Positions 8,871-35,395 of a stretch of 64,000 bases of DNA are shown here, piece by piece. The stretch spans positions 1 through 64,000 of the forward strand of contig JAJDXD010000108.1 in the NCBI GenBank assembly GCA_022823405.1. The letters run 5' to 3'. The notes beneath the pieces are model-generated. The model searched no databases. It worked only from the letters and a program-made list of their open reading frames with translations, and was not told the DNA's origin. This stretch comes from Gammaproteobacteria bacterium (GTDB taxonomy: Bacteria > Pseudomonadota > Gammaproteobacteria > Arenicellales > JAJDZL01). A program made the translations under genes and the position numbers. Within the stretch, counting starts at the first letter, position 1; each line of letters begins with the position of its first letter.

Positions 8871-9388
8871 AAAAGGTGTATTCAACTACAAAGTTTAGGG
8901 AAATCATGTACTTCAGTTGGCAAAGGCCAACTCGCTAATTCAAGAGGATTCAGTCAGTTGATTATTCATCTACTCTATGACGTTAATTTGTTTGCCCACC
9001 AGCAGAGGGAACAAAACTTTTTCCAACTGGTGACTTTTACTTTGTCGCCTAATCGCAACACTCGATGAAATTTGATATTCTGTATTTTTAACAATCGCCA
9101 TCACAACTGTCATCAGTAGCAATAGTATTCACTACAATTCTGCAAAATCTGATTATTGAGACAGTCACTCGCTTTGCGCCTTACCAGATTCTTAATGACA
9201 TTTTCAGAGGGGCTCACCGCCGTACCCAGCACTCAGATGCCCTACGAGTGCTTTCAGGTAAAGTGTTTCTGCATAAACATGCTCTTTGCCATCGATAAGT
9301 GTGTCAAGAAAGACTTCAAATTTGAGAGTATAAAATTGACTCGGCGAGCAATTATGTACCATCTAACGAAGTTCCAGTGTCAATCAAA
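8871..9388. other. Intergenic region at left edge of the island
   Basis: About 500 bases between the leftward transporter gene and the rightward GHKL gene. It must contain promoters for both, but no convincing -35/-10 pair stood out. A stretch from about 9122 to 9307 is open on the plus strand (frame of residues APYQILNDIFRGAHRR) and reads like protein, yet has no start and ends at TAA. It may be the decayed end of a former gene. A second overlapping frame from a TTG at 9156 reaches the GHKL start with an ATGA overlap, but has no recognisable content. Confidence 0.4.
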
Positions 9389-11371
9389 ATGAACAATCAA
9401 CAAACTAGTGGTAGTTGGAGATTTGCAGCTATGCAGCCTTCAGCCGTAAATCAAGATCCTTATCAAGGTGAGTTTTTTACTACAGAAGAAATCGATCTTC
9501 CACTTCGTCTGGTTAGAGAGTCAATCCAAAATTCATTGGATGCAATGGCACCCGATAATGATCAAGTTCAAATAAAGTTTGTGCTTAGCGGAGAAGGTCC
9601 TTTCGCATTATCGAGTAATGTTGCCAGCAAATATCACAGTGCTTTGAAGCGACACCTAAATTCAATCAATCTCCCTATATTTGGAGATGATGGCACCAGT
9701 AGCTTACAAGCATCTGAACTACTCAAAGAACCAATGTCGTATCTCATTATTGAAGACTTTGGTACAACAGGATTACAGGGAGAAGTCGAAGCGAACAGCC
9801 AAATGGAAAAAGGCAATGATTTTTGGGGATTGTTTAGAAGTGTTGGCATTACACCTAAAGACGATGACTCTGGCGGTTCTTGGGGCTTGGGTAAGTGGGT
9901 ATTTCCAGACGCGTCGATGATAAATTGTTTTTTTGGAATCACTTGTAGAAGGGAAGATGATGAAGTAAACAAATTGATGGGGATGACATTTCTTCAAACA
10001 CATCAAATTGAAAGCAAGAAGTTTCCGCCATATGGTTGGTATGCCAAATTCAGTTCTGACCCGGATGAATGTTGGTTACCGATGCCTATTGAATCAGATG
10101 ACGAAATTCTACAATTTTGTGAAGATTTCGAAATCAGTGACAGGATTTGTGAACCAGGTTTGTCAATTGTTGTTCCATACCCAAACAAAGAATTACAACT
10201 ATCGAAAATTGAGCATGCGGTAATTTCTCAGTACTTCCTACCCATTGTCAACGGTCGTCTACATGTCCAAATCTACGACAAAAATTCAAGAGAACAGAGA
10301 GAGATCAATGCTGATTCTATTTCCAAATTGATAAGCAATTTACCAAGCACAGAAACTGACGAAGATGGTCCATACGACACAAATCAAGAACTAATGTTGG
10401 CTGTTGAACTTGCACAATTTGCTCGACAATGTTTAAAACGTAACGATTTTATCGAGATTGACTCTGGTAACGCAGACCCCAGAAAGCTGGTTTTTAAAGA
10501 CTTAGAATCGCTGCAGGCAAAGTATGAAAATGGTATGAAATTGGCATTCAAAGTGGGTATTAATGTAAGGCATAGAATTAATGGTAATTCGGTCAATGAG
10601 TTTTATGTGTTTCTTAAAAAAAATCTTGAATTAAAACAAGGAATTCATTACTACGTTAGAGAAAATCTTCGAATTCCAGGCGTTCGACCTACCAGCAATC
10701 ATCAGGTAGAATCGCTTGTATTAATCGATGGGTCAACAGAACTAGGGCATATGCTGCGTGATGCTGAAGGACCGTCCCACGAAAAATGGAATAAATCATC
10801 TTCAAGACTAAAAGAAAACTGGATTGTTGGAAAGCGAGTTGACTTTGTCAGAGACATAATTGACCACCTTCTGAGGAATCTTCAACCTAGAACTGACAAA
10901 TTAAATTTTGGAACTTTAGCACATATCTTCCCGCGAACTGCATCGATCAATCCTTCACCAAGTCCAAAGCCTGACACTCCACCTGATACCCCCACTCCTC
11001 CCGATGTTCCTATTCCGCCAATACCTTCTAATCCAATACATTTCAATATTTCTCGATCAGGAAGTGAGCTGTTTGTAAAGAATACAAACAATCCCGTTGA
11101 GGAAAGAACCGAATGGAAACTCCAATTTGCATACGGACTGGCATATGAGAGATCAGGCGACCCATTCAGCATTTACGCAAATGCTTATAAAAATGGTTAT
11201 CCCGACTTCTCGCTTGATGACGGTAGCATTCAAATCGTCTCGAATTTTGGGTGTGTGATCAAAAATAGCTTCCGCAACGAAATTCACTTTACTGTCACTA
11301 AGGAGAGCTTCGAAATTAGATTAAGTGGTTTCGACAACCGAGATCTGACTACCCGAATCGATTCAAATTAA
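9389..11371 (+). CDS. Large GHKL-type ATPase, first gene of an uncharacterised defence-like cassette
   Basis: About 660 residues from the ATG at 9389 (a GTG four codons earlier is also open). The N-terminal part has the Bergerat ATP-binding fold. The N-box is RESIQNSLDA (E44, N48), the G1 box is IEDFGTTGLQG (D123) and the G2 box is GGSWGLGKW around 163-170, followed by VFPDAS. The middle third is unassigned. A proline-rich linker (repeated PPD/PTPP) near residues 530-555 leads to a C-terminal, probably beta-rich domain. This is the Hsp90/MutL/histidine-kinase ATPase superfamily, but no kinase or MutL domain is visible. Two companion genes follow, then a restriction-modification pair. I infer a role in defence from context; the function is not known to me. 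Confidence 0.75.
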   Translation: MNNQQTSGSWRFAAMQPSAVNQDPYQGEFFTTEEIDLPLRLVRESIQNSLDAMAPDNDQVQIKFVLSGEGPFALSSNVASKYHSALKRHLNSINLPIFGDDGTSSLQASELLKEPMSYLIIEDFGTTGLQGEVEANSQMEKGNDFWGLFRSVGITPKDDDSGGSWGLGKWVFPDASMINCFFGITCRREDDEVNKLMGMTFLQTHQIESKKFPPYGWYAKFSSDPDECWLPMPIESDDEILQFCEDFEISDRICEPGLSIVVPYPNKELQLSKIEHAVISQYFLPIVNGRLHVQIYDKNSREQREINADSISKLISNLPSTETDEDGPYDTNQELMLAVELAQFARQCLKRNDFIEIDSGNADPRKLVFKDLESLQAKYENGMKLAFKVGINVRHRINGNSVNEFYVFLKKNLELKQGIHYYVRENLRIPGVRPTSNHQVESLVLIDGSTELGHMLRDAEGPSHEKWNKSSSRLKENWIVGKRVDFVRDIIDHLLRNLQPRTDKLNFGTLAHIFPRTASINPSPSPKPDTPPDTPTPPDVPIPPIPSNPIHFNISRSGSELFVKNTNNPVEERTEWKLQFAYGLAYERSGDPFSIYANAYKNGYPDFSLDDGSIQIVSNFGCVIKNSFRNEIHFTVTKESFEIRLSGFDNRDLTTRIDSN

Positions 11372-11389
11372 ACATTTTTGGGAGACCTT

Positions 11390-12172
11390 ATGCTACGGCA
11401 TCTCAACGCGACTAATCGCAAAACAATTTCACCTCAAAACTACTCGCTGACTCTACATAAAACTGTTGAGACTGCTTCACCACATTTTAATTTGACGCTA
11501 AATTTAGGCAAATATAACTTCCCAGATTCAGCAAATATATGTGTAGAAGCTTGGCGCGGTAATGTTTGTCAACGATGGAACGTTGGAACTGTCGGTTTTA
11601 TCGATCTAGGAGACGATGCCTCTAGAAGACTTAAAGAACTTCCAATATCTGCCCGATTTCGAATTACTGTCATATCAAATGAAACTCATGGGTTAATTTT
11701 GGGAGAAACGAAGCCAGTTACTCGTAGCTTTCAACCATCAACACATCAATCATTTCTGCCAGTTCAATTCGTAGACAACATGAACGAAATTTGGCGGGTA
11801 GATCATGGTAACTCTGACGATGTTCCTGTGCTACAACTAAATCGTAGATTAAGAAATGTTGAGGATCAGATCGGTAAACCGACTAGTTTTTTGTGTTTAA
11901 CCATTCTCCCGGCAGTGTTAAGGACGGTTCTTACTCGTTTTCTACTTATCGAGAATAACAGTTTGACCGAATCAGAGCCAGAGCAAGCAATGTATCAATG
12001 GCTTAATTTTTCTAATGAACTTGTACCGTACGATAACCTTCTGGATGAATTAGAAAATGAGAGTGACATCGAACAACGGCACAAAGAGTTATCCAGTTGG
12101 ATCGAATCTGTCGTAGAGCATTTTGCGGAAACTCGATTAAAACTAAAAGATCACGTATCTAGCGTCACTTGA
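11390..12172 (+). CDS. Uncharacterised second gene of the GHKL cassette
   Basis: About 260 residues. The start at ATG 11390 is decided by the Shine-Dalgarno GGGAG at 11380-11384; an in-frame TTG at 11378 lies upstream of that site. The N-terminal 130 residues look like a beta-sandwich (alternating hydrophobic strands, for example FRITVISNETHGLILGE). The second half is helical and contains the phrase SFLPVQFVDNMNEIWRVD and then FLCLTILPAVLRTVLTRFL. From memory, proteins of this shape recur directly after GHKL ATPases like the one here, but I cannot name a family. Only 18 bases separate it from the ATPase gene, so cotranscription is likely. Confidence 0.7.
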   Translation: MLRHLNATNRKTISPQNYSLTLHKTVETASPHFNLTLNLGKYNFPDSANICVEAWRGNVCQRWNVGTVGFIDLGDDASRRLKELPISARFRITVISNETHGLILGETKPVTRSFQPSTHQSFLPVQFVDNMNEIWRVDHGNSDDVPVLQLNRRLRNVEDQIGKPTSFLCLTILPAVLRTVLTRFLLIENNSLTESEPEQAMYQWLNFSNELVPYDNLLDELENESDIEQRHKELSSWIESVVEHFAETRLKLKDHVSSVT

Positions 12173-12224
12173 ACAGTCATCTGAATTTCAACTACCGACA
12201 CCGCAACACAAAAAATCAACAGAA

Positions 12225-12947
12225 ATGGAAAATGTTCGACAACTTACTCTACACGGGATAAGTGAAGCTAAAAATATTATCGCTCAAACAGAAAATTCGA
12301 CTCGTTTTTCAAAAGCAGAAGCTTATCAATTTCTATTTTCTGACGGATACTCCCAACCAATCGAACATAATATTTTCATTGAAAAAAGAGAATTTAGAAG
12401 CAGAAAAAACGTTGTAGAGTATTTCCGCCCGATTTTTGATCCGTTTACTGAATTTCTTGCTGAAAGAGGAGAAATTTGGTCTTGGTTAGGCATGTATTAC
12501 CTGTTGAACAATTGTGTCGATTTAAGTAATCGAAAAGGTAAAAAGTTTCCTGCGGAAATTTTTGTATTTGGGGACGTTAGTACGCAAACTTATCGACGTC
12601 GCTATAAACATTGCCTTTGGGGTACATGGCGTCTTGGTAAACAGCACGGTGACTCGCTGCCATTTATATTGGGTAGAAGTCCTCTGGTTTGGAGCGATTT
12701 GGAAGACCGCGCTTTTAGCAAAGCTAGGGTATTCAATTCTATTGGTGTAATTCAGCTCATGGAACACCTGTATACGCGTAATGGTAAACTTGTGAAAAAC
12801 TATTCTAAAAATCGTGGCGGTCTCAGACATCTCCTTATCGTTCTAGATCAACTAGCACTCACGTACGACGTGTATGGGATGAAGATGGCGCAAATACTCT
12901 CCATCTTGCCACCGGAATTCGAAGAATGGGCAACTAGAACCAAATAA
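12225..12947 (+). CDS. Uncharacterised third gene of the GHKL cassette
   Basis: 240 residues, starting at an ATG with no clear ribosome-binding site, 52 bases after the previous gene. Notable stretches are EIWSWLGMYYLLN, RRRYKHCLWGTWRL and a C-terminal QLALTYDVYGM followed by ILSILPPEFEEW. I recall short proteins with this ending (LTYD-Y-M ... LLP-EF) next to restriction or GHKL genes, but no biochemical function. No signal peptide or membrane segment is visible. Composition is A+T-rich like its neighbours. A 188-base gap follows before the methyltransferase, so the cassette and the restriction-modification pair may have separate promoters. Confidence 0.68.
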   Translation: MENVRQLTLHGISEAKNIIAQTENSTRFSKAEAYQFLFSDGYSQPIEHNIFIEKREFRSRKNVVEYFRPIFDPFTEFLAERGEIWSWLGMYYLLNNCVDLSNRKGKKFPAEIFVFGDVSTQTYRRRYKHCLWGTWRLGKQHGDSLPFILGRSPLVWSDLEDRAFSKARVFNSIGVIQLMEHLYTRNGKLVKNYSKNRGGLRHLLIVLDQLALTYDVYGMKMAQILSILPPEFEEWATRTK

Positions 12948-13135
12948 CGAATTCAAAACATGCAATTTACGACTTGGAACTTACATTCAATTTAACTATG
13001 TTAGTTTCAAGTATTGCAATCGATATCTAATTGAAATCACGAAATGTTTCAGAATTTGTTCCAGAGAAAAGATAGATCAGATGTTGTTTTTGGACAGGGA
13101 CAGAATAGATCGAAATGTGAAGTGCTTATTGCAGA

Positions 13136-14431
13136 ATGACTAAACGGGAACAAGATTGGTCATCAGACATAAAAATGATCTTCAATGAAGTTGAATTGGA
13201 CGAGTCTTGGTCATTTGCAGACAAGACAAGGAAAGATACTGCGTATGTCACGCATGGATTCCACAGATATCCAGCTAAATTTATCCCCCAACTGGCCAAT
13301 CGTCTCATTTGCAAATATTCGCGGACCGAAGATTTGGTAGTAGATCCGTTTTGCGGTTGTGGCACTACCAGCGTAGAGTCGAAAATCAATGGAAGGCGAT
13401 CTATTGGTGTAGACATCAATCCTGTGGCTACGATGATATCCAAGGCAAAGATAACAGCGATTGAGCCTAGTCGATTAGCTACAAATGTTGTAGGACTTCA
13501 AAACAAACTGCAATCGTACAAAGTGGAGTTAGTAAAGCAATACCCGCAGCACTCTCGAATTGACTATTGGTTTTATGAGGATCAGAAGATGAAGCTTGCC
13601 TATTTGCTTCAACTGATCAATGAGACTCCAGATACCGATATAAGAAACTTTTATCTTTGCGGTTTTTCAAACATACTGAAGAATTGTTCAATCTGGTTGC
13701 AGAAAAGCAGTAAGCCAACGAGGGATTTTCGTAAGAATGTTTCTGACCCGTTCATTGCATTTAACCGGCACCTAAAGGTTATGATGCGAGGCAACAATTC
13801 ATTTTTTAGGCATCTTCAAAAAGATGACCGCTTCGACATTCAAAGCGATATTCATATCTCCGATGCTCGCTGCCTCCCACTCGAATCTGAATCAACTATG
13901 CTGATAGTTACTTCGCCGCCATACGTAACTTCCTACGAGTACGCAGATTTACACCAACTCACAGCATTCTGGTTCGATTACACTGATTCCCTGCCATCTT
14001 TCAGAAAGAAATTTATTGGAACGGCTCACCACGAATCAAAACAACTGAATTTGAACAGTCAGGTTGCTGAGAAAATAGTTAGTCAATTGAAAGCGAACAG
14101 CCGCAAGATTGCCATTGAAGTGCAGACTTATTTTGGAGAGATGTATCAGGTATTTCATGAAATGAAACGTATTTTGAGGGGGGGGGGTAAAGCTTGTGTA
14201 GTCATTGGCAATACGGGATTGAAAGGTGTGGAAATCTTGAATGCCGAGGTATTTGCAGAACAGTTTTTGCATTTGGGATTTACTGTGGAGAGCATAATCA
14301 AGCGAGAAATTCCATCCAAAATTTTGCCTTCGATTCGAGACCCGAATACCGGCAAATTCGCAAAATCCTCATGCAACGCCAAAGTTCTGGCATATCCAAC
14401 AGAGTTCATTCTGGTTATGAGGAAATCATGA
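13136..14431 (+). CDS. TSPPY-type DNA methyltransferase (N4-cytosine or N6-adenine)
   Basis: 431 residues. Motifs in order: FHRYPAKF at 42-49, the SAM-binding motif DPFCGCGTT at 70-78 followed by GVDINPVA, and the catalytic motif TSPPY at 259-263 followed by VTSYEYADLHQLTAFWF. This arrangement is found in type II modification enzymes that methylate an exocyclic amine; the base cannot be decided by eye. A run of ten G (14178-14187) encodes R348-G349-G350-G351. Gain or loss of one G would cause a stop within four codons and remove the last 80 or so residues. The stop overlaps the start of the endonuclease gene (ATGA). It most likely protects the host against that enzyme. Confidence 0.88.
   Translation: MTKREQDWSSDIKMIFNEVELDESWSFADKTRKDTAYVTHGFHRYPAKFIPQLANRLICKYSRTEDLVVDPFCGCGTTSVESKINGRRSIGVDINPVATMISKAKITAIEPSRLATNVVGLQNKLQSYKVELVKQYPQHSRIDYWFYEDQKMKLAYLLQLINETPDTDIRNFYLCGFSNILKNCSIWLQKSSKPTRDFRKNVSDPFIAFNRHLKVMMRGNNSFFRHLQKDDRFDIQSDIHISDARCLPLESESTMLIVTSPPYVTSYEYADLHQLTAFWFDYTDSLPSFRKKFIGTAHHESKQLNLNSQVAEKIVSQLKANSRKIAIEVQTYFGEMYQVFHEMKRILRGGGKACVVIGNTGLKGVEILNAEVFAEQFLHLGFTVESIIKREIPSKILPSIRDPNTGKFAKSSCNAKVLAYPTEFILVMRKS
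14178..14187 (+). repeat. G10 homopolymer tract inside the methyltransferase gene
   Basis: Ten consecutive G in an otherwise A+T-rich gene. In the window the reading frame is intact (AGG GGG GGG GGT). With eleven G the next codon would be TAA (14188-14190). With nine G the frame reaches TAG at 14199-14201. Such tracts are the classical slipped-strand substrates of phase-variable genes. A homopolymer sequencing error cannot be excluded. Confidence 0.9.
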
Positions 14432-15138
14432 ACTTTAAATCCGTGGCAATTGCTTATGACCAAGCTAGGGAAAAATACGGGTTAAGTGCTTACCGACACA
14501 TTTCTAAGGTTTTAGAATCACTAAAAGAAACCCACAAACAAGATTTCAAAGGGAATGACCATGAGCAATCATGGAGATCATTTAAAGGTAAAAATCTGGA
14601 AAAACTCATCGAACATGTTCTCAAGACAGAGTTGGAAAAAATAGGATTGGCAATTGAAAACGGAAGTTCATTGGAAAGGCGCAGTGAGGCAAACTTATCT
14701 GTATTGAGTGCTAAACTAAAGAGGCAGTTACTGGTGGACTATGGAGAATACGGTTACCATTTTCCGGATTCTGACCTTATTATCTACAACCCCGAGACTT
14801 GCAAAGTTATAGCTTCTGTATCTGTAAAGACCACACTTCGGGAACGTGTGGCCCAAACTGGATACTGGAATTTGAAACTAAAGAGTCAACCAACAACGAA
14901 AGTGATCAAAGTTATTTTCATCAGTCCTGATGAAGACAACACTCTCGCTCAGCGTAAACCGGCAAAAAAAGGAAGAGCAATTGTCGAGGTTGATACGGAT
15001 GGAACTTACGTAATGAGTCAAACAACGATAGAAGAAAGTGATAAGGTCAAGATGTTTGACAAGCTGATAGAAGACTTAGCTGTTTGGAGAGATCAAGACA
15101 TAGCGACTTCAAATTCAGTTGATGCAAGGCGATCATGA
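14428..15138 (+). CDS. Type II restriction endonuclease, PD-(D/E)XK-like
   Basis: 236 residues from the ATG at 14428, which overlaps the methyltransferase stop by four bases. The core reads FPDSDLIIY (PD at 113-114, D116) and, 16 residues on, SVSVKTTLRERVAQT (K134, E139). The order PD-x-D ... S-x-K with a following TLRER is seen in several type II enzymes; SxK instead of (D/E)xK recalls the CCGG group (BsaWI, Cfr10I, Ecl18kI). I lean towards a BsaWI-like enzyme but cannot prove specificity. The N-terminal motif SWRSFKGKNLEKLIEHVL also fits restriction enzymes. A longer reading from a TTG at 14194 in the same frame exists but lies inside the methyltransferase and has no support. Confidence 0.8.
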   Translation: MNFKSVAIAYDQAREKYGLSAYRHISKVLESLKETHKQDFKGNDHEQSWRSFKGKNLEKLIEHVLKTELEKIGLAIENGSSLERRSEANLSVLSAKLKRQLLVDYGEYGYHFPDSDLIIYNPETCKVIASVSVKTTLRERVAQTGYWNLKLKSQPTTKVIKVIFISPDEDNTLAQRKPAKKGRAIVEVDTDGTYVMSQTTIEESDKVKMFDKLIEDLAVWRDQDIATSNSVDARRS

Positions 15139-26142: not shown

Positions 26143-27836
26143 TGGATTTTCGCCGCGCGCTTCTGGCTATTTCGCTAGGCTTGATACTGCTGCTGATTTG
26201 GCAGGCATGGGTTGATTTTCAGAATACACCGCAAATCAATACGCTCCCGACTGAATCGGTAGTCGATGCAGAATTACCGCAGACTCCGGAGCCCAGACCG
26301 CAGGCGGAAACATCAACTACGCCTCAGGCGCCAGATTCATCCGCCACTCCCCTTCCTCAAACTGTTCTACCCACTACATCAGATGAATCAGGCACAATCG
26401 TATCTGTTGAGACTGATCTGCTTAAGGTTAGAATCGATACACTTGGTGCACAGTTAAAAGATACTCGTTTAATTCAATACCCGGTTGAAGTTGAGATGCC
26501 GGATGTGCCGTTCAGACTGCTTAAAGATCAGCCGCCTGAAGTCCTGATTGCACAATCCGGATTAGTCGGTAATGATTTTGAATTTCCAAACCACAAGACC
26601 CAATTTCAAGCAGAGTTACAGTCATATACATTGGCTGAGGGGGCAGACTTCATCGAAGTTCCACTGCACTGGGAATCGCCTGATGGAGTCGAGTACATCA
26701 AACTGTTTACCTTTCACCGCGACAGTTACTTAATTGATATTGAATATCAAATTTCAAACAAGAGCGGTCGTGAATGGCAAGGATATGACTACGGACAGTA
26801 TGTATCCACCGAGCATCAGCCTGATGGCGAAGGCTTCCTTTTCCTTAGGGCGCTGCCAAGTTATCAAGGTGCAGCAATTTATACCCCGGAAGACAAGTAC
26901 GATAAGGTTGATTTCAAAGAAATTCGAAATGAGCGACCTGAATTTCTAACCCAGTCGGGGTGGGTTGCTATGTTGCAGCACTATTTTGTGACCGCATGGC
27001 TGCCTGAAGAAAATGCCCCCTATCGCTTTTATACGGGGCCGCTGGACGGGCACGGTGCAAATATGCGCTATCAGGTCGGATACATATCGCAGAGCCCATT
27101 GACGGTTGCCAATGACTCAGTTGGGTCGATCAACACCCGACTTTATGTGGGTCCCAAGGAACAAGACCGGATCAAAGACCCGGCTGAGGGTCTGATTCTG
27201 ACCGTCGATTACGGATGGCTGACGCCTGTTTCATCTCCACTTTTCTGGATTCTGGATAGAATCAACGACTTTATTCAGAACTGGGGTTTTTCCATCATCG
27301 TTCTGACCTTACTGGTCAAAATAGTCTTTTACCCGCTATCGGCAGCCAGTTACAAATCGATGGCGAGAATGAAAAAACTACAGCCGCGCCTTAAGACACT
27401 TAAGGAGAGGTACGGAGATGACAAACAGAAACTGAACCAGGAGATGATGCAGATCTACAAGAAAGAGAAGATCAATCCCCTGGGAGGCTGTTTGCCGATT
27501 CTTATCCAAATTCCAGTGTTCATTGCGCTCTACTGGGTGTTGCTGGAAAGTGTGGAACTTCGACAGGCACCGTTTATTTTTTGGTTGACAGATCTTTCCC
27601 GCTCAGATCCCTTTTATGTGTTGCCAGTCCTGATGGGTGCCTCCATGTTTGCCCAGCAGTTCCTGAATCCAACTCCGCTGGATGCAATGCAGAAAAACAT
27701 CATGATGGCACTGCCTATTGTATTTACAGTATTTTTCCTGTGGTTTCCTTCCGGACTTGTGCTTTACTGGTTGGTCAATAACATCCTTTCAATTGCGCAG
27801 CAGTGGTATATCACCCGCAAACTGATCGCGGAATAG
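26139..27836 (+). CDS. yidC: Membrane protein insertase YidC
   Basis: 565 residues, gammaproteobacterial length. After the N-terminal membrane segment ([16 protein letters not shown]) comes a Pro/Thr/Gln-rich stretch, then the large periplasmic beta-supersandwich domain (about 85-350). The conserved core begins near [20 protein letters not shown], continues with [30 protein letters not shown] and [23 protein letters not shown], and ends with [22 protein letters not shown]. It inserts proteins into the inner membrane alone or with SecYEG. The start ATG overlaps yidD; an adjacent ATG one codon later is equivalent. Its 3' end overlaps the likely mnmE start by 34 bases. Confidence 0.97.
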
Positions 27837-29185
27837 ATGGTGGTGATACCGATACGATTGCTGCCGTATCAACACCCGCCGGCGTGGGTGGCATTGGAAT
27901 TGTTCGTCTTTCCGGACCCGATTCAGCAGAAATCGCAACCCGCCTGAGTAGTTCGGTACCGGCGCCGAGAAACGCCGGCTATCGTATTTTCTGCGATGCC
28001 GAGGGTGGTGAAATTGACCGGGGAATATTGCTTTATTTTCCAGCACCAAACTCCTACACTGGCGAGGACGTTGTTGAATTTCAATGTCACGGCGGCCCGG
28101 TGGTGCTTGGTATGCTGTTGGCAAGAGTGCTTGATTTAGGCGCTCGCACTGCTGAACCTGGGGAATTCACCCGTCGTGCTTTTTTGAACTCGAAAATGGA
28201 CCTCGCCCAGGCTGAGGCGGTTGTCGATTTGATCAACAGTTCGACTGAAGCTGCGGCACGTTGTGCACTGCGTTCGCTAAAGGGAGACTTTTCTGAAAAA
28301 GTATCTCAAATCATGGATCAACTGCAGAATCTGCGAATCTATGTTGAATCTGCCATTGATTTTCCGGACGAAGAGATTGATTTTCTGGATGATCAGCAAC
28401 TGATCACGTCAGTAGTTGGGATTAGAAATGAACTTGCCGATCTGTTGGATTCTGCAGAGAGGGGAAAGGTGATGCGCGAGGGGATGGAAGTCGTCATTGC
28501 GGGGTTGCCCAATGCTGGAAAGTCAAGCCTGCTAAACCAACTCGCCGGTCTTGAGCGCTCAATTGTGACACCCTATGCCGGAACCACCCGGGATACGGTG
28601 GATCTTGTCGTTGACATTGAGGGTCTGGCGGTTGGCCTGACGGATACTGCTGGTCTTCGCGTTAGTGACAATCCCGTCGAACAAGAAGGTATATCACGCG
28701 CTTGGCAAAGCATCGGTGATGCAGACCTCGTACTGTATCTGATAGATGTTACGCAAGACATCAGTGACACGGACCGTGAAAATTTGGGCAAAATAGAAGA
28801 TTCTAAATTGTTGATTGTGTGGAATAAAATAGATCTTGATGATTCTTTTGTTCCATCTCCAACCGGATGTCAGGCGAATGAGGTCGCAATATCCGCCAAG
28901 AATGCATTCGGGATTGATGCAATTCGCGACCACATTCGGGTCTTCGCAGGCATTACAGCAAGCGATGAAGGTATGTTTCTTGCACGAAGGCGACACCTTG
29001 AGGCGATTGAAAATGCGCTGAGTTATGTGGTCAGTGCGCATGCTGCGCTCAGTAATAATCAGTCTGGAGAACTGGCGGCACAGGATTTGCGAGATGCAAT
29101 GGATGAGCTTGGCAAAATTGTTGGCATTCGATCAGCCGATGAGTTGCTAGGTGAAATATTTGCCAGCTTTTGTATCGGGAAATAG
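27803..29185 (+). CDS. mnmE: tRNA modification GTPase MnmE
   Basis: 460 residues with an N-terminal tetrahydrofolate-binding domain (TIAAVSTPAGVGGIGIVRLSG), a helical domain, and an inserted G domain: GLPNAGKSSLLNQL (P-loop), DTAGLR, NKID (WNKID). The C-terminus FCIGK has the catalytic cysteine of the family. With MnmG it makes the cmnm5U34 modification of tRNA wobble uridine. The only usual start codon before the conserved sequence is GTG 27803, giving a 34-base overlap with yidC and a leader of about 16 residues that is longer than typical; a non-standard ATT start further in cannot be excluded. mnmG is normally next but is displaced 4.3 kb here by the two following genes. Confidence 0.94.
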   Translation: MVYHPQTDRGIDGGDTDTIAAVSTPAGVGGIGIVRLSGPDSAEIATRLSSSVPAPRNAGYRIFCDAEGGEIDRGILLYFPAPNSYTGEDVVEFQCHGGPVVLGMLLARVLDLGARTAEPGEFTRRAFLNSKMDLAQAEAVVDLINSSTEAAARCALRSLKGDFSEKVSQIMDQLQNLRIYVESAIDFPDEEIDFLDDQQLITSVVGIRNELADLLDSAERGKVMREGMEVVIAGLPNAGKSSLLNQLAGLERSIVTPYAGTTRDTVDLVVDIEGLAVGLTDTAGLRVSDNPVEQEGISRAWQSIGDADLVLYLIDVTQDISDTDRENLGKIEDSKLLIVWNKIDLDDSFVPSPTGCQANEVAISAKNAFGIDAIRDHIRVFAGITASDEGMFLARRRHLEAIENALSYVVSAHAALSNNQSGELAAQDLRDAMDELGKIVGIRSADELLGEIFASFCIGK

Positions 29186-29215
29186 AGCGAACTCATCAAA
29201 TTGGGAGTAAACTAT

Positions 29216-30184
29216 TTGAAAACCCCTGCAAGGAAAAAGCCTACCATCAGTGCAAAAATGCGAAAAAATCAATCAGAACGAATTTTGATCCAGATTGCTG
29301 TTGTTCTGGCCCTTCTTGTTGCCGTCGTCATATGGCAATTCGATTATCTGTCGGATTTGTATATTGAAAATCAACTCACCAGAGTTGGGTGGGTGATCAA
29401 TAGCGCAATCTTGGTATTGTTTTTGGTTGGGATGGGGCGGATGATCCATCTTTTTGTTCACTACCGGAAGGAAGAAGTGGCGATGAATGCTTTTTCCAGT
29501 GCCATCGCCTCCGGAAGGGAAGAAGATATAGGGGATGTCCTGCCGAAAGATTCCATCATTGGTCAGCGTTATTGGACCATCGCTGGATTTTTCAGAGCAC
29601 GAACTGAAATCAACCACAATGCGCTAGCTTCAACGTTGCTCGCCCGAGAGACGAGCAAGACAAGTTTTGTCAAATTTATCAATAACATACTGATTTTGGC
29701 AGGTGTCTTTGGTACGATTGTATCGCTGACCGTAGCACTGCTCGGCGCATCGACGGCAATGTCGGCAACAGAAAGTTTGCGCGGCATTGATATTGTGATT
29801 CATGGAATGTCGACCGCGCTCTCAACGACGATGACTGCGATTGTGTCATATTTTATGTTCGGGTATTTTTACCTGAAGTTACTCGACACCCAGTCTTACA
29901 TCCTGGGTTGGGTAGAGCATGAGACTGCAACTCAGATGATTCCGCGCTATCAGGTTGCAACCCGTTCACCAGAGCAGGCATTGAGTGAGATGTTGGCCAG
30001 CACGGTTGAGACGATCGACAAATTCAATTCCTTCATCAATCAAATTCAGTCCCTTGGTGTCGCGCAAAAGGAGATGCTGGATAATTTTGAAAAGCTCAAC
30101 GAACAGAACATGCATTTGCTAAGTGATATTCGGAGCATTCTGCGAGCTGGTTTCCGTTTGCGGGACGATTCCAATTCTGATTAG
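29216..30184 (+). CDS. MotA/TolQ/ExbB-type proton channel protein
   Basis: 322 residues from TTG 29216, chosen because GGGAG at 29203-29207 lies eight bases upstream; a TTG at 29201 and an ATG at 29258 are alternatives. Four membrane segments are visible (about residues 22-41, 56-78, 145-173 and 187-220). The last two carry the family pattern: GVFGTIVSLTVALLG, then GMSTALSTTMTAIVSYFMFG with the polar Thr pair. TolQ, ExbB and MotA use this pair of helices as the ring of a proton-driven motor. The C-terminal 80 residues are amphipathic helix. The next gene, 22 bases on, encodes the matching single-span partner. Confidence 0.82.
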   Translation: MKTPARKKPTISAKMRKNQSERILIQIAVVLALLVAVVIWQFDYLSDLYIENQLTRVGWVINSAILVLFLVGMGRMIHLFVHYRKEEVAMNAFSSAIASGREEDIGDVLPKDSIIGQRYWTIAGFFRARTEINHNALASTLLARETSKTSFVKFINNILILAGVFGTIVSLTVALLGASTAMSATESLRGIDIVIHGMSTALSTTMTAIVSYFMFGYFYLKLLDTQSYILGWVEHETATQMIPRYQVATRSPEQALSEMLASTVETIDKFNSFINQIQSLGVAQKEMLDNFEKLNEQNMHLLSDIRSILRAGFRLRDDSNSD

Positions 30185-30206
30185 GAGCTAAGGTCCAACC
30201 ACCGTT

Positions 30207-33107
30207 ATGACGGGGAACTCTGGCGGATTCGTTGACCTGCGCGTTCACCGCGCCACTGAAAGTAGTCATTCTGACGACAGTATCTGGCCATCATTTACTG
30301 ACATCATGATGGTCATTGTGATGATATTTCTTATGGCGGCGGTTATTTTCATGCTGCGTAATATCCAGTTAGGCGAAGATATGGAACTCGCTTCTGAGGC
30401 GCGCAGCCAGGCTATTTCGGAAACTGAGTCTTTACGAGAGAGAGCCACCTATCTTGCTGAAATTATTGAACAAACCAAAGAGCAACTCAGTCTCACAGAG
30501 TTTCAAAAGGCAGAACTTGAGCAATTGTCAAAAGAACGTGGCGCCCGAATTTCTGAACTGGAAATTGAAACCGCTGAACTCTATCAAGTCCAACAGCAGC
30601 TTGACGCTGAAGTCAGCAGCTTAACCAAGAGTCTTCAGGAGATTCGAGGCCATCGCGATCAGTTGACAGAACAAGTCAGTTCGATGAACCTGACCATAAC
30701 TGAGCTGAATTCGCTGATCGAAACACGAGCGGAAGAACTGGAAACACTGCAAACAGGTCTTCTTGATAAGCAGAACCAGTTGGCGGCTCTGGAAGAGCAT
30801 TTAAGCCAGCGAAGCAGTGAAGTGGAGGAGTTGCGTCTCACTCTCGCCGATCTACAGGCACTTGAGACAGAACAGCGCAATCAGATTGCAGTACTTGAAA
30901 AAGTCAGAGCGGAAAGCGAAGTCAAAATTCAAGACTTGATTGCTGAATCGGGCCTGAAGGACGAACAGATTGCTGCGCTATCTGAGGCCACAAAGCAGCA
31001 GAGTGCCGAGTTGGCAGAGCGGTTGACTGAGTTGGAAGAACTGGAACAGGCGTATAGCGAGAGTCTTGCAGCGGTGGAGGAACTTCGCACCGGTCTGGTC
31101 AGTCGAGAGGATGAAATCCAGAGTTTGAAACTTGCCAGTGCACAGTTGCAGGGTGTTGTAGAGCAATTGGAGGCCGTTAGACTGGAACAAGGGCTGACTA
31201 TTGAACGCCAACAGGAGTCACAGGCACAGTTGCGCGAAACATTAACACAGCGAGCTGCTGAAATTTCCGATATCGAGCGTCAGCTAAACGTTAAATCAGA
31301 CCAGGTAGTTCAGTTAACTGAATCGCAAATCGGATTGCTAAGGGATCTTGAAGCTCTTCAGGTGGACCATGCGGAAAGTGAACGCATCATTGAATCCCAG
31401 CAGCAGGAGCTTGCGTCATTGCAGGCTTTACAAGCTGAACAGCTGACAGAACTCACTCAAGCAGAAGCGCAATTCCTTGAACAGGAGCGCGAACTGGTAC
31501 GAACCAAGTCCGAATTGGATCGAGCGTTGACAGATTTACAGCAAGTGAGGTTATCAAGTGCGGCATTAAGTGAGACTCAACAGGCCGACATAGCGAGACT
31601 GACTGAGTCTGAGACGCAAAGCGCCCTGACTATCGAACGTCAGCAGCAGGAGCTTGCATCGCTACAGGCACTGTACGCTGAACGCTTGGCGGAACTCAAT
31701 CGAATAGAGGAGAATTTTCTCGACCGAGAGCGTGAACTGGCGCGAACAAAGTCTCAATTGGACGAGGTGTTGAGCCAATTGCAGCAAGTGAAGATTACCA
31801 GCGCAGCATTGAGCGATACCCAGCAGGCTGACATAACGAGACTGACTGAGTCTGAGACACAGAGCGCACTGACTATCGAACGTCAGCAGCAGGAACTTGC
31901 ATCGCTACAGGCGCTGTACGATGAAAGGCTTGTAGAGTTGAATCGAGTTGAAGCAGAGTTTATAGCGAGGGATCGGGACCTGGTTCGTACTCAATCGGAG
32001 CTAGAAGCAGCGTTAGAGGAATTGCAGAAGGTTCGATTGGCCAGTGCAGCCTTGAGTGAAAGCCAGAAAGCCGACATCGCTCGTCTGACTGAATCTGAGT
32101 CACAGAGTACGCAGACCATAGAAAGCCAGAAACAGGAACTTGCCGCGCTACAGGCGCTCTACACAGAACGTTTGGCTGATCTTGGTCGGATGGAGTCGGA
32201 ATTCATTGAAAACGAGCGTAGTCTGGCGCGATTACAGGAACAGATGGTGTCCGCAGTTGAAATGATTAGTTCCTTGAGACTGGATCTACAGGAGCGCAAC
32301 GACAAGATCAATTCTCTTAATGCGAAAGTTGCCACACTAAGTGACGAAGTCAGCGCGCTAAGCACTTCCAGCGATGAGTCAAAAAGTCAAATAGATCAAT
32401 TACTAACAGATAAATTACAGGACCAGAACCGAATCGCCCAACAGCAGCAGCAACTGGTGGAACTTGAGCGGACGATACAGCAGATAACGATTGAAAATGA
32501 AGACTTGCTGCGAGAGCTTGACTACAGTCGCAGGTTGCAGGCGGACCGACAACAGCAGTTTGAAACTCTGCAATCTGTAATGGCGCAATTGAGTGCTGAT
32601 TTAAAGACTCGGGACGAAAGGATTGAAAGTCTGCAGACAGAGAAGGAAGAATTGTTTCAGACGGGTGTGAAAAGCGACCACGAAATTACCGAATTGCGCG
32701 AGGCCTATCAGCAGCGGCTGGCAGAATTGGCCAATCTACAAACCGCATTGACATCAAGAAGTGGTGAAGTTGAACAGCTTCAAAGTGAAATTGTTGAACT
32801 TCAGGAGGAGCGTCAAATTCTATTGCGGCCTGCGCGAAGTCCAGTTAACCGCTATGTTGTCGATGTGATATTCAACAAGTCACTTGAAGGTCAAAACGTA
32901 TTTCACTATCGGTTGCCAGGTGAGGCTGCCGCAGTTCGTGTATCGCGCGAGGAGCTTGAAGCAGTATTGGCACGACTCAAAAGAGAGCGGTCAGAAGGTC
33001 TTTACACCAGAGTAATTTTTCCTGATGAGGACAGGTTGACTTTTTCTGAAGCCTGGGCCTTTACTCAACATATTCAGTCGAACTACGACTACTACTCCAA
33101 TCAATGA
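30207..33107 (+). CDS. Single-span MotB/TolR-like protein with giant coiled coil
   Basis: 966 residues. After 26 residues comes one membrane segment, SIWPSFTDIMMVIVMIFLMA, with Asp32 just inside it. This is where MotB, TolR and ExbD have their proton-accepting Asp. Residues 55 to about 870 are almost wholly Gln/Glu/Leu-rich coiled coil, with three tandem 81-residue repeats and a partial fourth. The last 90 residues form a different, globular-looking domain (NRYVVDVIFNKSLEGQNVF ... RVIFPDEDRLTFSEAWAFTQHI), which could be a degenerate TolR/ExbD-like periplasmic domain; that is inference. Together with the preceding channel gene it looks like a motor and lever arm. No peptidoglycan-binding OmpA motif is seen. 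Function unknown. Confidence 0.8.
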   Translation: MTGNSGGFVDLRVHRATESSHSDDSIWPSFTDIMMVIVMIFLMAAVIFMLRNIQLGEDMELASEARSQAISETESLRERATYLAEIIEQTKEQLSLTEFQKAELEQLSKERGARISELEIETAELYQVQQQLDAEVSSLTKSLQEIRGHRDQLTEQVSSMNLTITELNSLIETRAEELETLQTGLLDKQNQLAALEEHLSQRSSEVEELRLTLADLQALETEQRNQIAVLEKVRAESEVKIQDLIAESGLKDEQIAALSEATKQQSAELAERLTELEELEQAYSESLAAVEELRTGLVSREDEIQSLKLASAQLQGVVEQLEAVRLEQGLTIERQQESQAQLRETLTQRAAEISDIERQLNVKSDQVVQLTESQIGLLRDLEALQVDHAESERIIESQQQELASLQALQAEQLTELTQAEAQFLEQERELVRTKSELDRALTDLQQVRLSSAALSETQQADIARLTESETQSALTIERQQQELASLQALYAERLAELNRIEENFLDRERELARTKSQLDEVLSQLQQVKITSAALSDTQQADITRLTESETQSALTIERQQQELASLQALYDERLVELNRVEAEFIARDRDLVRTQSELEAALEELQKVRLASAALSESQKADIARLTESESQSTQTIESQKQELAALQALYTERLADLGRMESEFIENERSLARLQEQMVSAVEMISSLRLDLQERNDKINSLNAKVATLSDEVSALSTSSDESKSQIDQLLTDKLQDQNRIAQQQQQLVELERTIQQITIENEDLLRELDYSRRLQADRQQQFETLQSVMAQLSADLKTRDERIESLQTEKEELFQTGVKSDHEITELREAYQQRLAELANLQTALTSRSGEVEQLQSEIVELQEERQILLRPARSPVNRYVVDVIFNKSLEGQNVFHYRLPGEAAAVRVSREELEAVLARLKRERSEGLYTRVIFPDEDRLTFSEAWAFTQHIQSNYDYYSNQ
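31386..32230 (+). repeat. Tandem 243-bp (81-residue) coding repeats
   Basis: Units start at 31386, 31629 and 31872, with a partial fourth from 32115. Each begins with a (T/I)IE(R/S)Q(Q/K)QELASLQAL phrase and ends with QADIARLTESETQS. Units two and three are near-identical over long DNA stretches (for example the block at 31641 and its copy at 31884). 81 residues equals ten heptads plus one hendecad, so a continuous coiled coil is preserved through each copy. Confidence 0.92.
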
Positions 33108-33499
33108 CAAACTGGAGTATCGTCTTCAGCTTCGTCCAGTCACCAGTGATATAGTGATAAGATATTGATAATAAAGACTAATGATGCCATTACTTTGCGA
33201 TTAAACGGCATCGGTTGAAAATTATTATGGCAGGCAAAAAGCGTAAGCCAGGCTCTACTGGGTAATCTCAGTTGAAATTGAAGCATTCAGAGAATTGAAT
33301 TTGGTGGATAATGCACAATCCGAACCGCGGGTTCAACCGCAAGACTTGAAGAACTGTCGCTTAATGTCCTAATTTCAAGTATTTACGCATCACTTAACAG
33401 ACCTCGTTACATGACTAGATTCACGTTCAGCAATATTAAAGGCTCCTGTCCTGCGAGTCTGGGGTGTGTTGCACCTTTATTCGAGTTGGGAGCATCGTC
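33108..33499. other. Intergenic region before mnmG
   Basis: 392 bases without a credible gene. It separates the coiled-coil gene from mnmG and should contain the promoter for mnmG-rsmG-parAB. A 13-codon open reading beginning ATGGCAGGCAAAAAGCG near 33225 is too short to support. No hairpin with a T run was recognised. Confidence 0.4.
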
Positions 33500-35395
33500 A
33501 TGCCGTCAATGATGAATTACGATGTCGTTGTTGTGGGTGGTGGTCATGCCGGTGCTGAAGCCGCGATGGCCGCGGCTCGGACTGGTAGTCGTACACTGCT
33601 ATTGACCCAAAACATTGAAACCATTGGACAAATGTCCTGTAATCCAGCAATTGGCGGAATCGGCAAGGGACATATCGTTCGTGAAATTGATGCACTGGGT
33701 GGTCTCATGGCGCATGCGACCGACCGTAGCGGGATTCAGTTTCGTCGGTTAAATGTTCGAAAAGGGCCGGCGGTACGCGCCACGAGAGCCCAGACAGATC
33801 GGTCGCTTTACCGATCGGCTGTTCGAAAGATGTTGGAAGAGCAGGACAATCTGACCTTTTTTCAGCAGGAAGTCGATGATCTGGTGATTGATGGTGATCG
33901 CGTGACGGGTGTGGTTACCCGATTTGGTGTTCAAATAAGCGCTAGAAGCGTGGTTCTTGCGACAGGCACTTTTCTAGGCGGTATTTTGCATGTCGGTCTT
34001 CAGCAGCGAAGTGGAGGCCGTGCCGGCGATGCACCGTCGAATCGGCTGGCTGTCAGGTTGCGAGACATGATGTTCCACGTGGAACGTCTCAAAACCGGTA
34101 CGCCTCCCCGAATCGATGGTCGAACCATTGATTATTCAAGACTGATTGAGCAGCCCGGCGATCAACCAACACTGGTATTTTCTTTTATCGGCTCTGTCGA
34201 TGAGCATCCGCGTCAGGTATCCTGCCATATCGCTCGTACCAACGAGAGGACGCACGACATCATTCGCAAGCATTTGCATGAATCGGCGATGTACGGTGGT
34301 GCTATCGACTCTATTGGACCGCGCTACTGTCCGTCAGTCGAAGACAAGGTGGTTCGATTTGCGGAACGCACCTCTCATCAGATCTTTGTTGAGCCCGAAG
34401 GTCTTGATTCATATGAAATTTATCCAAACGGAATTTCAACTAGCCTGCCTTTTGAAGCACAGTGTGACTTTGTCAAATCCATCGAAGGCTTTGAAAATGC
34501 AGTGATTACTCGTCCAGGTTATGCGATTGAGTACGACTTTTTGGACCCGCGGGATCTGCACCCAAGTCTCGAAACAAAAGTTCTTGGCGGGCTTTTTTTC
34601 GCAGGCCAGATCAACGGTACAACTGGCTATGAAGAAGCCGCGTGCCAGGGCTTGATTGCTGGACTTAATGCCTCCCGACAGGCTCAGGACATGGAGACAT
34701 GGTGGCCCAGGCGAGATCAGGCTTATATAGGCGTGCTTATCGACGATCTGGTGACGAAAGGTGCCGATGAACCCTATCGTATGTTTACCTCGCGTGCAGA
34801 GAATCGACTGCTGCTGCGTGAAGACAATGCGGACCTTCGTTTGACCGAAATAGGGCGTGAAATTGGGCTGGTAGACAATCGACGCTGGAAAATATTCAAC
34901 AATAAGCGTAACTTACTTGAGAGTGAACGTTCCCGCCTTGAGGCTGTTAAAGTTACACCAACGGCTGATACACAGGCGGTCAGCGAAAAAATCATGGGCC
35001 GTGCATTGACGAGTGAAACAACGCTGTATGCTCTTCTGAGAGATCCCGAAGTGAACTACGACGCAATTATGCAGCTTCCAGGCGCCGGTGATCCGATTAC
35101 TGACCGCTCAGTGCAGGAACAGCTTGAAATAGAAGCGCGTTATGAAGGCTACATTCAGCGTCAAAAAACGGCGCTTCGTAAAACAATGAAGCTGGAAAGT
35201 GTCGATTTACCCTCAGCCATTGACTATTTTAGAGTCCATGGACTGTCGAATGAGGTGCGGCAGAAGTTGGACCGGCATCGTCCACAGAATTTAGGTCTTG
35301 CATCCAGAATCCCTGGTGTTACACCAGCAGCGGTATCGGCTCTGGCCGTACACCTGAAAAAAGAGACCATGCAAAAACCCGAACCGGTGACTTAA
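33500..35395 (+). CDS. mnmG: tRNA uridine 5-carboxymethylaminomethyl modification enzyme MnmG
   Basis: 631 residues from ATG 33500, supported by the Shine-Dalgarno GGGAG at 33488-33492; ATGs at 33509 and 33512 are alternatives. The FAD-binding N-terminus reads [21 protein letters not shown]. Family signatures follow: [62 protein letters not shown] and [20 protein letters not shown]. The C-terminal helical domain that contacts MnmE is present. It works with MnmE on tRNA wobble uridine. A parS-like site lies within this gene. rsmG follows after 16 bases. Confidence 0.96.
34071..34086. promoter_or_regulatory. parS-like ParB-binding site within mnmG
   Basis: TGTTCCACGTGGAACG matches the palindromic parS consensus TGTTnCACGTGnAACA at every defined position but the last. 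It lies 2 kb upstream of parAB and about 10 kb from the probable oriC, the region where chromosomal parS sites cluster. The host codons encode MFHVERL. Confidence 0.8.

Follow-up and report, generated by a model that had tools for sequence, protein, structure and literature searches.

A pair of adjacent genes, here called A and B, lies between mnmE and mnmG in a 64,000-nucleotide (nt) stretch of DNA from a gammaproteobacterium of the order Arenicellales (the window; assembly GCA_022823405.1, contig JAJDXD010000108.1, positions 1–64,000). Their products are proposed to make up a motor of the inner membrane, driven by protons and of the TolQR/ExbBD type, in which B carries its own periplasmic coiled-coil shaft, a reading to which a probability of roughly 0.6 is assigned. 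The pair is conserved and vertically inherited, the channel residues of A are invariant, the predicted fold of A matches that of TolQ/ExbB, the modelled tip of B resembles TolR/ExbD, and the length of B is quantised in heptads. A sequence-only reading of the window had described a channel protein followed by a single-span protein with a giant coiled coil, and both open reading frames are where it placed them. Its start for A, position 29216, is possible in frame but is only one of several, which run from TTG 29201 to ATG 29258; an alignment of 31 relatives favours ATG 29258, where the homologues begin. The features of the locus are as follows.

29201–30184, + strand: gene A, four-helix TolQ/ExbB-like channel subunit (327 residues from TTG 29201; 308 residues from ATG 29258)
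29669–29764, + strand: membrane helix 3 of A, with invariant G171-T172 (T172 codon 29714–29716), equivalent to the GT(V) threonine of TolQ/ExbB
29774–29884, + strand: membrane helix 4 of A, with invariant GMSxALSTT (T210 codon 29828–29830), equivalent to the ALxAT threonine of TolQ/ExbB
29894–30181, + strand: C-terminal helical tail of A, probably cytoplasmic, with a conserved L..GFRL motif at its end
30207–33107, + strand: gene B, single-span Asp subunit with giant coiled coil and TolR/ExbD-like tip (966 residues)
30225–30242, + strand: N-terminal motif GFVDLR of B (F8, D10 and R12 invariant in 24 relatives), cytoplasmic by homology
30285–30356, + strand: transmembrane helix of B, WPSFTDIMMVIVMIFLMAAVIFML, with invariant Asp32 (codon 30300–30302)
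30363–32810, + strand: coiled coil of B, about residues 53–868, proline-free, hydrophobic period 3.51, register shifts 6>3>0>4
31485–32176, + strand: tandem 243-bp (81-residue) repeats within the coil
32820–33104, + strand: C-terminal domain of B, motif ARS...YT...EAW.FT...YDYY, whose model resembles TolR/ExbD periplasmic domains
27803–29185, + strand: mnmE, upstream of A (15-nt gap)
33464–35395, + strand: mnmG, downstream of B (356-nt gap)

The channel subunit and its Asp-bearing partner

A and B are real genes under purifying selection, since the ratios of nonsynonymous to synonymous substitution rates against a 95%-identical relative are low (0.08 for A and 0.14 for B) and comparable to that of mnmE (0.11); the value for rsmG is 0.17. 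The repeats of B are not an assembly artefact, given that the same length of 966 residues occurs in an independent genome and that long versions are present in two single-contig genomes.

A is composed of four membrane helices and a helical C-terminal tail, and T172 and T210 are invariant across 31 members. When the profile of A was aligned with that of TolQ/ExbB using hhalign, the score was 45.1 (E 1.1e-5), against a maximum of 22.8 among 30 column-shuffled controls. The alignment pairs GVFGTI and ALSTT of A with GLFGTV and ALIAT of TolQ/ExbB, and T172 and T210 therefore occupy the places of the TolQ/ExbB channel threonines. The PF01618 (MotA_ExbB) profile was matched weakly by 29 of the 31 members, and the window's own A protein scores below its cut-off. 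A fold model of A (predicted local distance difference test score, pLDDT, 76) is closest to ExbB (5sv1; Z 13.5 over 207 residues at 3.4 Å) and TolQ (Z 13.3), and the first 18 rows of the structural ranking are all ExbB or TolQ, followed by ZorA (Z about 11) and MotA (about 9), although all-helical models may reach such Z values by chance. A is a member of the MotA/TolQ/ExbB proton channel superfamily, which bears out the sequence-only reading on the type of channel, and it keeps the polar residues whose loss would have counted against that reading. A phmmer search of A against the PDB returned chance matches only, and matches from a profile search were rejected as coiled-coil or chance chains. 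Apparent fusions of A, 760–773 residues long, look like open frames opposite a minus-strand gene.

Asp32 of B, in the MotB/TolR position of a single-span protein, is kept in all 74 non-redundant relatives and opens an uncharged hydrophobic stretch (mean Kyte-Doolittle value 3.1) in which a charge appears within the next 17 residues in only 2 of the 74. Aligned with the Asp segment of ExbD/TolR, the membrane segment of B scored 17.5, slightly above the shuffled maximum of 15.7. The C-terminal domain of a 24-member family was modelled with a pLDDT of 83 as a beta-beta-beta-alpha-beta-alpha fold. A second structural aligner placed TolR (5by4; Z 7.3 over 88 residues) first and ExbD (8vgd; Z 6.7 over 69 residues) second among 998 chains, and Foldseek placed TolR at rank 28 (E 0.27). 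The pointers from the helix and from the tip are independent and converge on one family, and B looks like a TolR/ExbD-type subunit, with a tip of TolR/ExbD-like predicted fold and a coiled coil in place of the short linker. The coil of more than 800 residues and the small C-terminal domain noted from the sequence are thus both present, but the domain is not an anonymous one. B has no match to the ZorB family. In line with the earlier reading, an OmpA domain was not found in B, and the neighbourhood holds no nuclease. Matches of B to SMC/Rad50/MukB-like proteins were rejected as reflecting coiled-coil composition, and those from a profile search with its C-terminal domain as coiled-coil or chance chains.

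Register and length of the coiled coil

The window's coil runs for about 815 residues without a proline; prolines are absent from 135 of 137 coils in the family, which have a dominant hydrophobic period of 3.47–3.52. Register was measured as the distance, modulo 7, between two invariant features, the Asp and the ARS motif of the tip, in 74 representatives chosen to have tips less than 70% identical. This distance falls in class 6 in 58 representatives, class 3 in 11, class 0 in three and class 4 in two, and never in classes 1, 2 or 5; no other tabulated modulus gave a comparable concentration. Relatedness inflates any p-value on these counts, and the number of distinct lengths is the more cautious measure: among short coils, 52 of 55 are 6 modulo 7, covering 11 of 14 distinct lengths (174, 181, 188 ... 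258). Classes 3, 0 and 4 correspond to class 6 plus one, two and three four-residue insertions (stutters). B of the window, with an Asp-to-tip distance of 844, belongs to class 4, and its register shifts through 6, 3, 0 and 4 near residues 390, 525 and 616. Its three stutters match its length class and lie in or close to the region of 81-residue repeats (81 being 10 heptads plus 11). In 52 short coils the hydrophobic a/d positions keep common offsets from the Asp over the full rod, the first quarter being less regular. Coil length changes one heptad at a time and pairs of heptads are not favoured, which argues against an antiparallel hairpin, whose arms should change together. These observations point to one unbroken, register-locked parallel rod, and the earlier view that the protein must fold back is not supported in its simple sense, as single-heptad steps and a register locked at both ends suit a continuous rod.

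Coils of the family are 120 to 939 residues long, with a main range of 143–227 residues. At 0.1485 nm per residue the main range equals 21–34 nm, whereas the window's 813 residues would give 121 nm if continuous and the longest coil, of 939 residues, 139 nm. The periplasm is 15–40 nm wide (PMC12905483), about the length of a typical family coil. The statement that the coil is longer than the periplasm is therefore right for the window, but a typical member fits. B ranges from 612 to 966 residues within the window's own genus, and the giant length reflects lineage-specific growth from a coil of 120–230 residues.

In the mechanism that we infer, A and B would assemble, probably as A5B2, and protons, as the likely ion, would move between Asp32 of B and a ring of threonines in A (T172 and T210). 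A continuous parallel two-stranded coiled coil would replace the flexible TolR/ExbD linker, its register tied at one end to the membrane helix and at the other to the TolR/ExbD-like domain, so that a single chain, B, would serve both as motor subunit (TolR/ExbD) and as long-reach transducer (TolA/TonB). B, which may rotate, would carry torque or position to a tip bound to peptidoglycan or the outer membrane, and the coil of about 21–34 nm in most relatives would suffice to cross the periplasm. In the window's lineage the rod would have grown to about 120–140 nm through additions of heptads and hendecads and would have to lie obliquely or tangentially.

Several observations weigh against this reading. 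A B of 966 residues cannot cross a normal periplasm radially, and no partner of the tip was identified. The charges flanking the membrane helix of B do not obey the positive-inside rule, and the periplasmic side is accordingly assigned from homology. The Z values of the tip fall within the range of chance arrangements, hhalign found no match between the C-terminal domain and ExbD/TolR beyond shuffled controls, and PF02472 matched no B locus in the 41 genomes searched; among isolated C-terminal domains it matched 2 of 24 (best E 0.07). With moderate Z values and sequence profiles that do not confirm them, the TolR/ExbD assignment draws on the helix and the tip together. B is not filed under the ExbD/TolR family, because it lacks both the PF02472 profile match and the short linker.

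Distribution, gene context and competing explanations

A was found in 38 of 60 close and order-level relatives and, across the class, in 55 of 369 genomes sampled. Of 398 genomes sampled from the whole phylum, 28 gave a match, comprising the window's own genome and 27 from two families outside the class, which carry some of the shortest coils (127–174 residues). A scan of named genomes gave 339 related stretches, and among the best 80 are ones from Arenicellales, Candidatus Thiodiazotropha, Sedimenticola, a Solemya gill symbiont and Chromatiales. With the WPSFTD motif as its mark, B was located next to A in 48 of 56 further loci, the remainder including some that are incomplete or perhaps carry a variant motif. 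The pair is conserved in many marine and symbiotic gammaproteobacteria, and the look across Gammaproteobacteria for such neighbouring genes, which had been proposed from the sequence, returned A and B together.

The insertion between mnmE and mnmG holds for most loci of the window's order, sometimes with other genes inserted, but the pair lies elsewhere in other lineages. In Chromatiales-type genomes it is often next to glycerate kinase. In one other lineage it directly follows dnaA-dnaN-gyrB, again beside origin genes and with the mnmE/mnmG context absent. In Sedimenticola hydrogenitrophicus, which has a short B of 357 residues, the genes after AB encode a response regulator with a CheC-like domain and a GGDEF protein, and homologues of both genes follow AB in some other Sedimenticola genomes. 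In the mnmE/mnmG lineages, the distances between A proteins track the corresponding ones for MnmE, MnmG, YidC and RsmG, with r 0.80–0.90, close to the correlations of these core genes with one another (0.84–0.92), indicating that the pair was inherited together with them. No constant third gene was found beside AB in the Chromatiales-type loci or in 20 others, and the unit is therefore the pair itself; glycerate kinase, lpxH and tsaB were rejected as partners, being explained by lineage synteny. AB is thus an old unit that stands alone and has been passed on vertically.

The locus neighbours in the window are yidC, mnmE, mnmG, rsmG and parA, part of a yidC-mnmE-mnmG-rsmG-parAB cluster near dnaA, and scans of the AB locus for promoters and terminators gave signals no higher than in shuffled sequence. 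Elsewhere in the window, a defence-like island at 9377–15138 contains a PDC-M33A-like protein, two proteins without assignment, and methyltransferase and endonuclease frames, namely a type II DNA methyltransferase (13136–14431) overlapped by a BsaWI-type restriction endonuclease frame (14194–15138).

The absence of a recurring neighbour bears on two unlikely explanations of the pair. AB could be a further TolQR/ExbBD energiser whose output passes through a separate TolA/TonB-like transducer, the coil serving only to set the height of the TolR-like domain. A and the tip of B are indeed closest to TolQ/ExbB and TolR/ExbD, which always work with a transducer. However, the diverse contexts examined show no recurrent neighbouring gene of any kind, a coil of at least 24 nm would raise the tip far past the position of TolR, and the window's own genome already holds a separate TolQR, on which ground a replacement of Tol-Pal by AB was also rejected. 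On another contig, that genome encodes a 251-residue MotA/ExbB-family protein beside a single-span protein with a LAFLDVMACG helix, a short coiled coil and a VWA domain; this third motor-like pair adjoins a protein that appears, by eye, to be formylglycine-enzyme-like. Improbable too is a motor comparable to AglRQS, GldLM or SiiAB that would drive surface movement or would hold or secrete a surface protein. GldM also has a long periplasmic shaft, and the pair occurs with or without flagella (FlhA is present in about 32 of 55 AB carriers against 201 of 369 genomes overall, showing no link, and was not found in the window's own genome), yet no recurring neighbour is fit to be an adhesin, secretion or gliding component.

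Very unlikely is an inverted topology of B, which would place the giant coil in the cytoplasm as a tether, for instance to the origin or division machinery encoded nearby. The helix-flanking charges do not favour an N-in orientation, and the locus lies near dnaA or, in the other lineage, next to dnaA-dnaN-gyrB. Against this, the Asp of B matches the position of that in TolR/ExbD, and the modelled tip resembles their periplasmic domains. The Asp subunits of known motors (TolR, ExbD, MotB and ZorB) are N-in, and the N-terminus of Escherichia coli ExbD is likewise acidic, which also counts against inversion. A Zorya-like phage-defence trigger, with B sensing envelope damage, is the least probable of all: it has in its favour weak ZorA profile matches (one with E 2.5e-5 that covers just 76 residues, and an NCBIfam ZorA score of 11.7 bits where the cut-off is 500) and the ranking of ZorA models just after TolQ/ExbB, but the neighbourhood holds no ZorC/D or ZorE effector or nuclease, the long tail is on the other subunit, and synteny of the pair with mnmE/mnmG extends across many genera, with distances that track core genes. 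Of the closest concepts named from the sequence, Tol and Exb therefore stand, while Zorya is not supported as the closest.

Taking AB as a TolQR/ExbBD-type motor with its own shaft, the fact that evolution permitted only register-keeping changes of coil length suggests that torsional or positional continuity matters. Reviews of Tol and Ton leave open whether the axle rotates in 5:2 motors and in what way force is passed on to the outer membrane. AB is a natural test case, as axle and shaft are apparently one chain whose length varies about 6-fold, and the short, typical form of B in the strain-collection organism Sedimenticola selenatireducens DSM 17993 opens the idea to genetics. It may further be speculated, though this is rather doubtful, that AB represents a class of rotary machine of the envelope not described before. 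Its motor dimer would drive an unbroken, register-locked coiled-coil shaft, over 100 nm and several periplasm widths long in some lineages, and no separate TonB/TolA transducer would be needed to deliver torque or reach along or across the envelope.

Comparison with known systems

AB shares with TolQ-TolR the channel fold, the two channel threonines, the membrane Asp and, by model, a TolR-like distal domain. However, the TolR/ExbD linker is disordered and roughly 20 residues long (PMC12905483), against a coiled coil of 120–939 residues in B, and TolA, TolB and Pal are not beside the pair. ExbB is the best structural match of A and the ExbD domain the second-best for the tip of B, but TonB is not nearby, A has an additional N-terminal membrane helix and the conserved GFRL tail, and B has its shaft. 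MotA-MotB likewise combines a four-helix A subunit with an Asp subunit; MotA ranks lower structurally, B is without an OmpA-like domain, and AB also occurs in flagella-free genomes. The flagellar MotB dimer has been treated as a coiled coil in published modelling (PMC10659934), making a shaft in register with membrane helices mechanically plausible. GldL-GldM also has a dimeric Asp subunit with a long periplasmic shaft, of 18 nm (PMC9389320), but that shaft consists of four folded domains and no coiled coil, and belongs to Bacteroidota and the type IX secretion system. ZorA-ZorB has a membrane core from the same superfamily. In Zorya, the long tail is on ZorA and cytoplasmic, and the end of ZorB is a Pal-like domain that binds peptidoglycan (PMC11890865), whereas in AB the coil is on B, effector genes are absent, and the location is core rather than island. 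No description of the AB family was found in the open-licence literature, in agreement with the sequence-only reading, and AB is best called a new family within the 5:2 motor superfamily.

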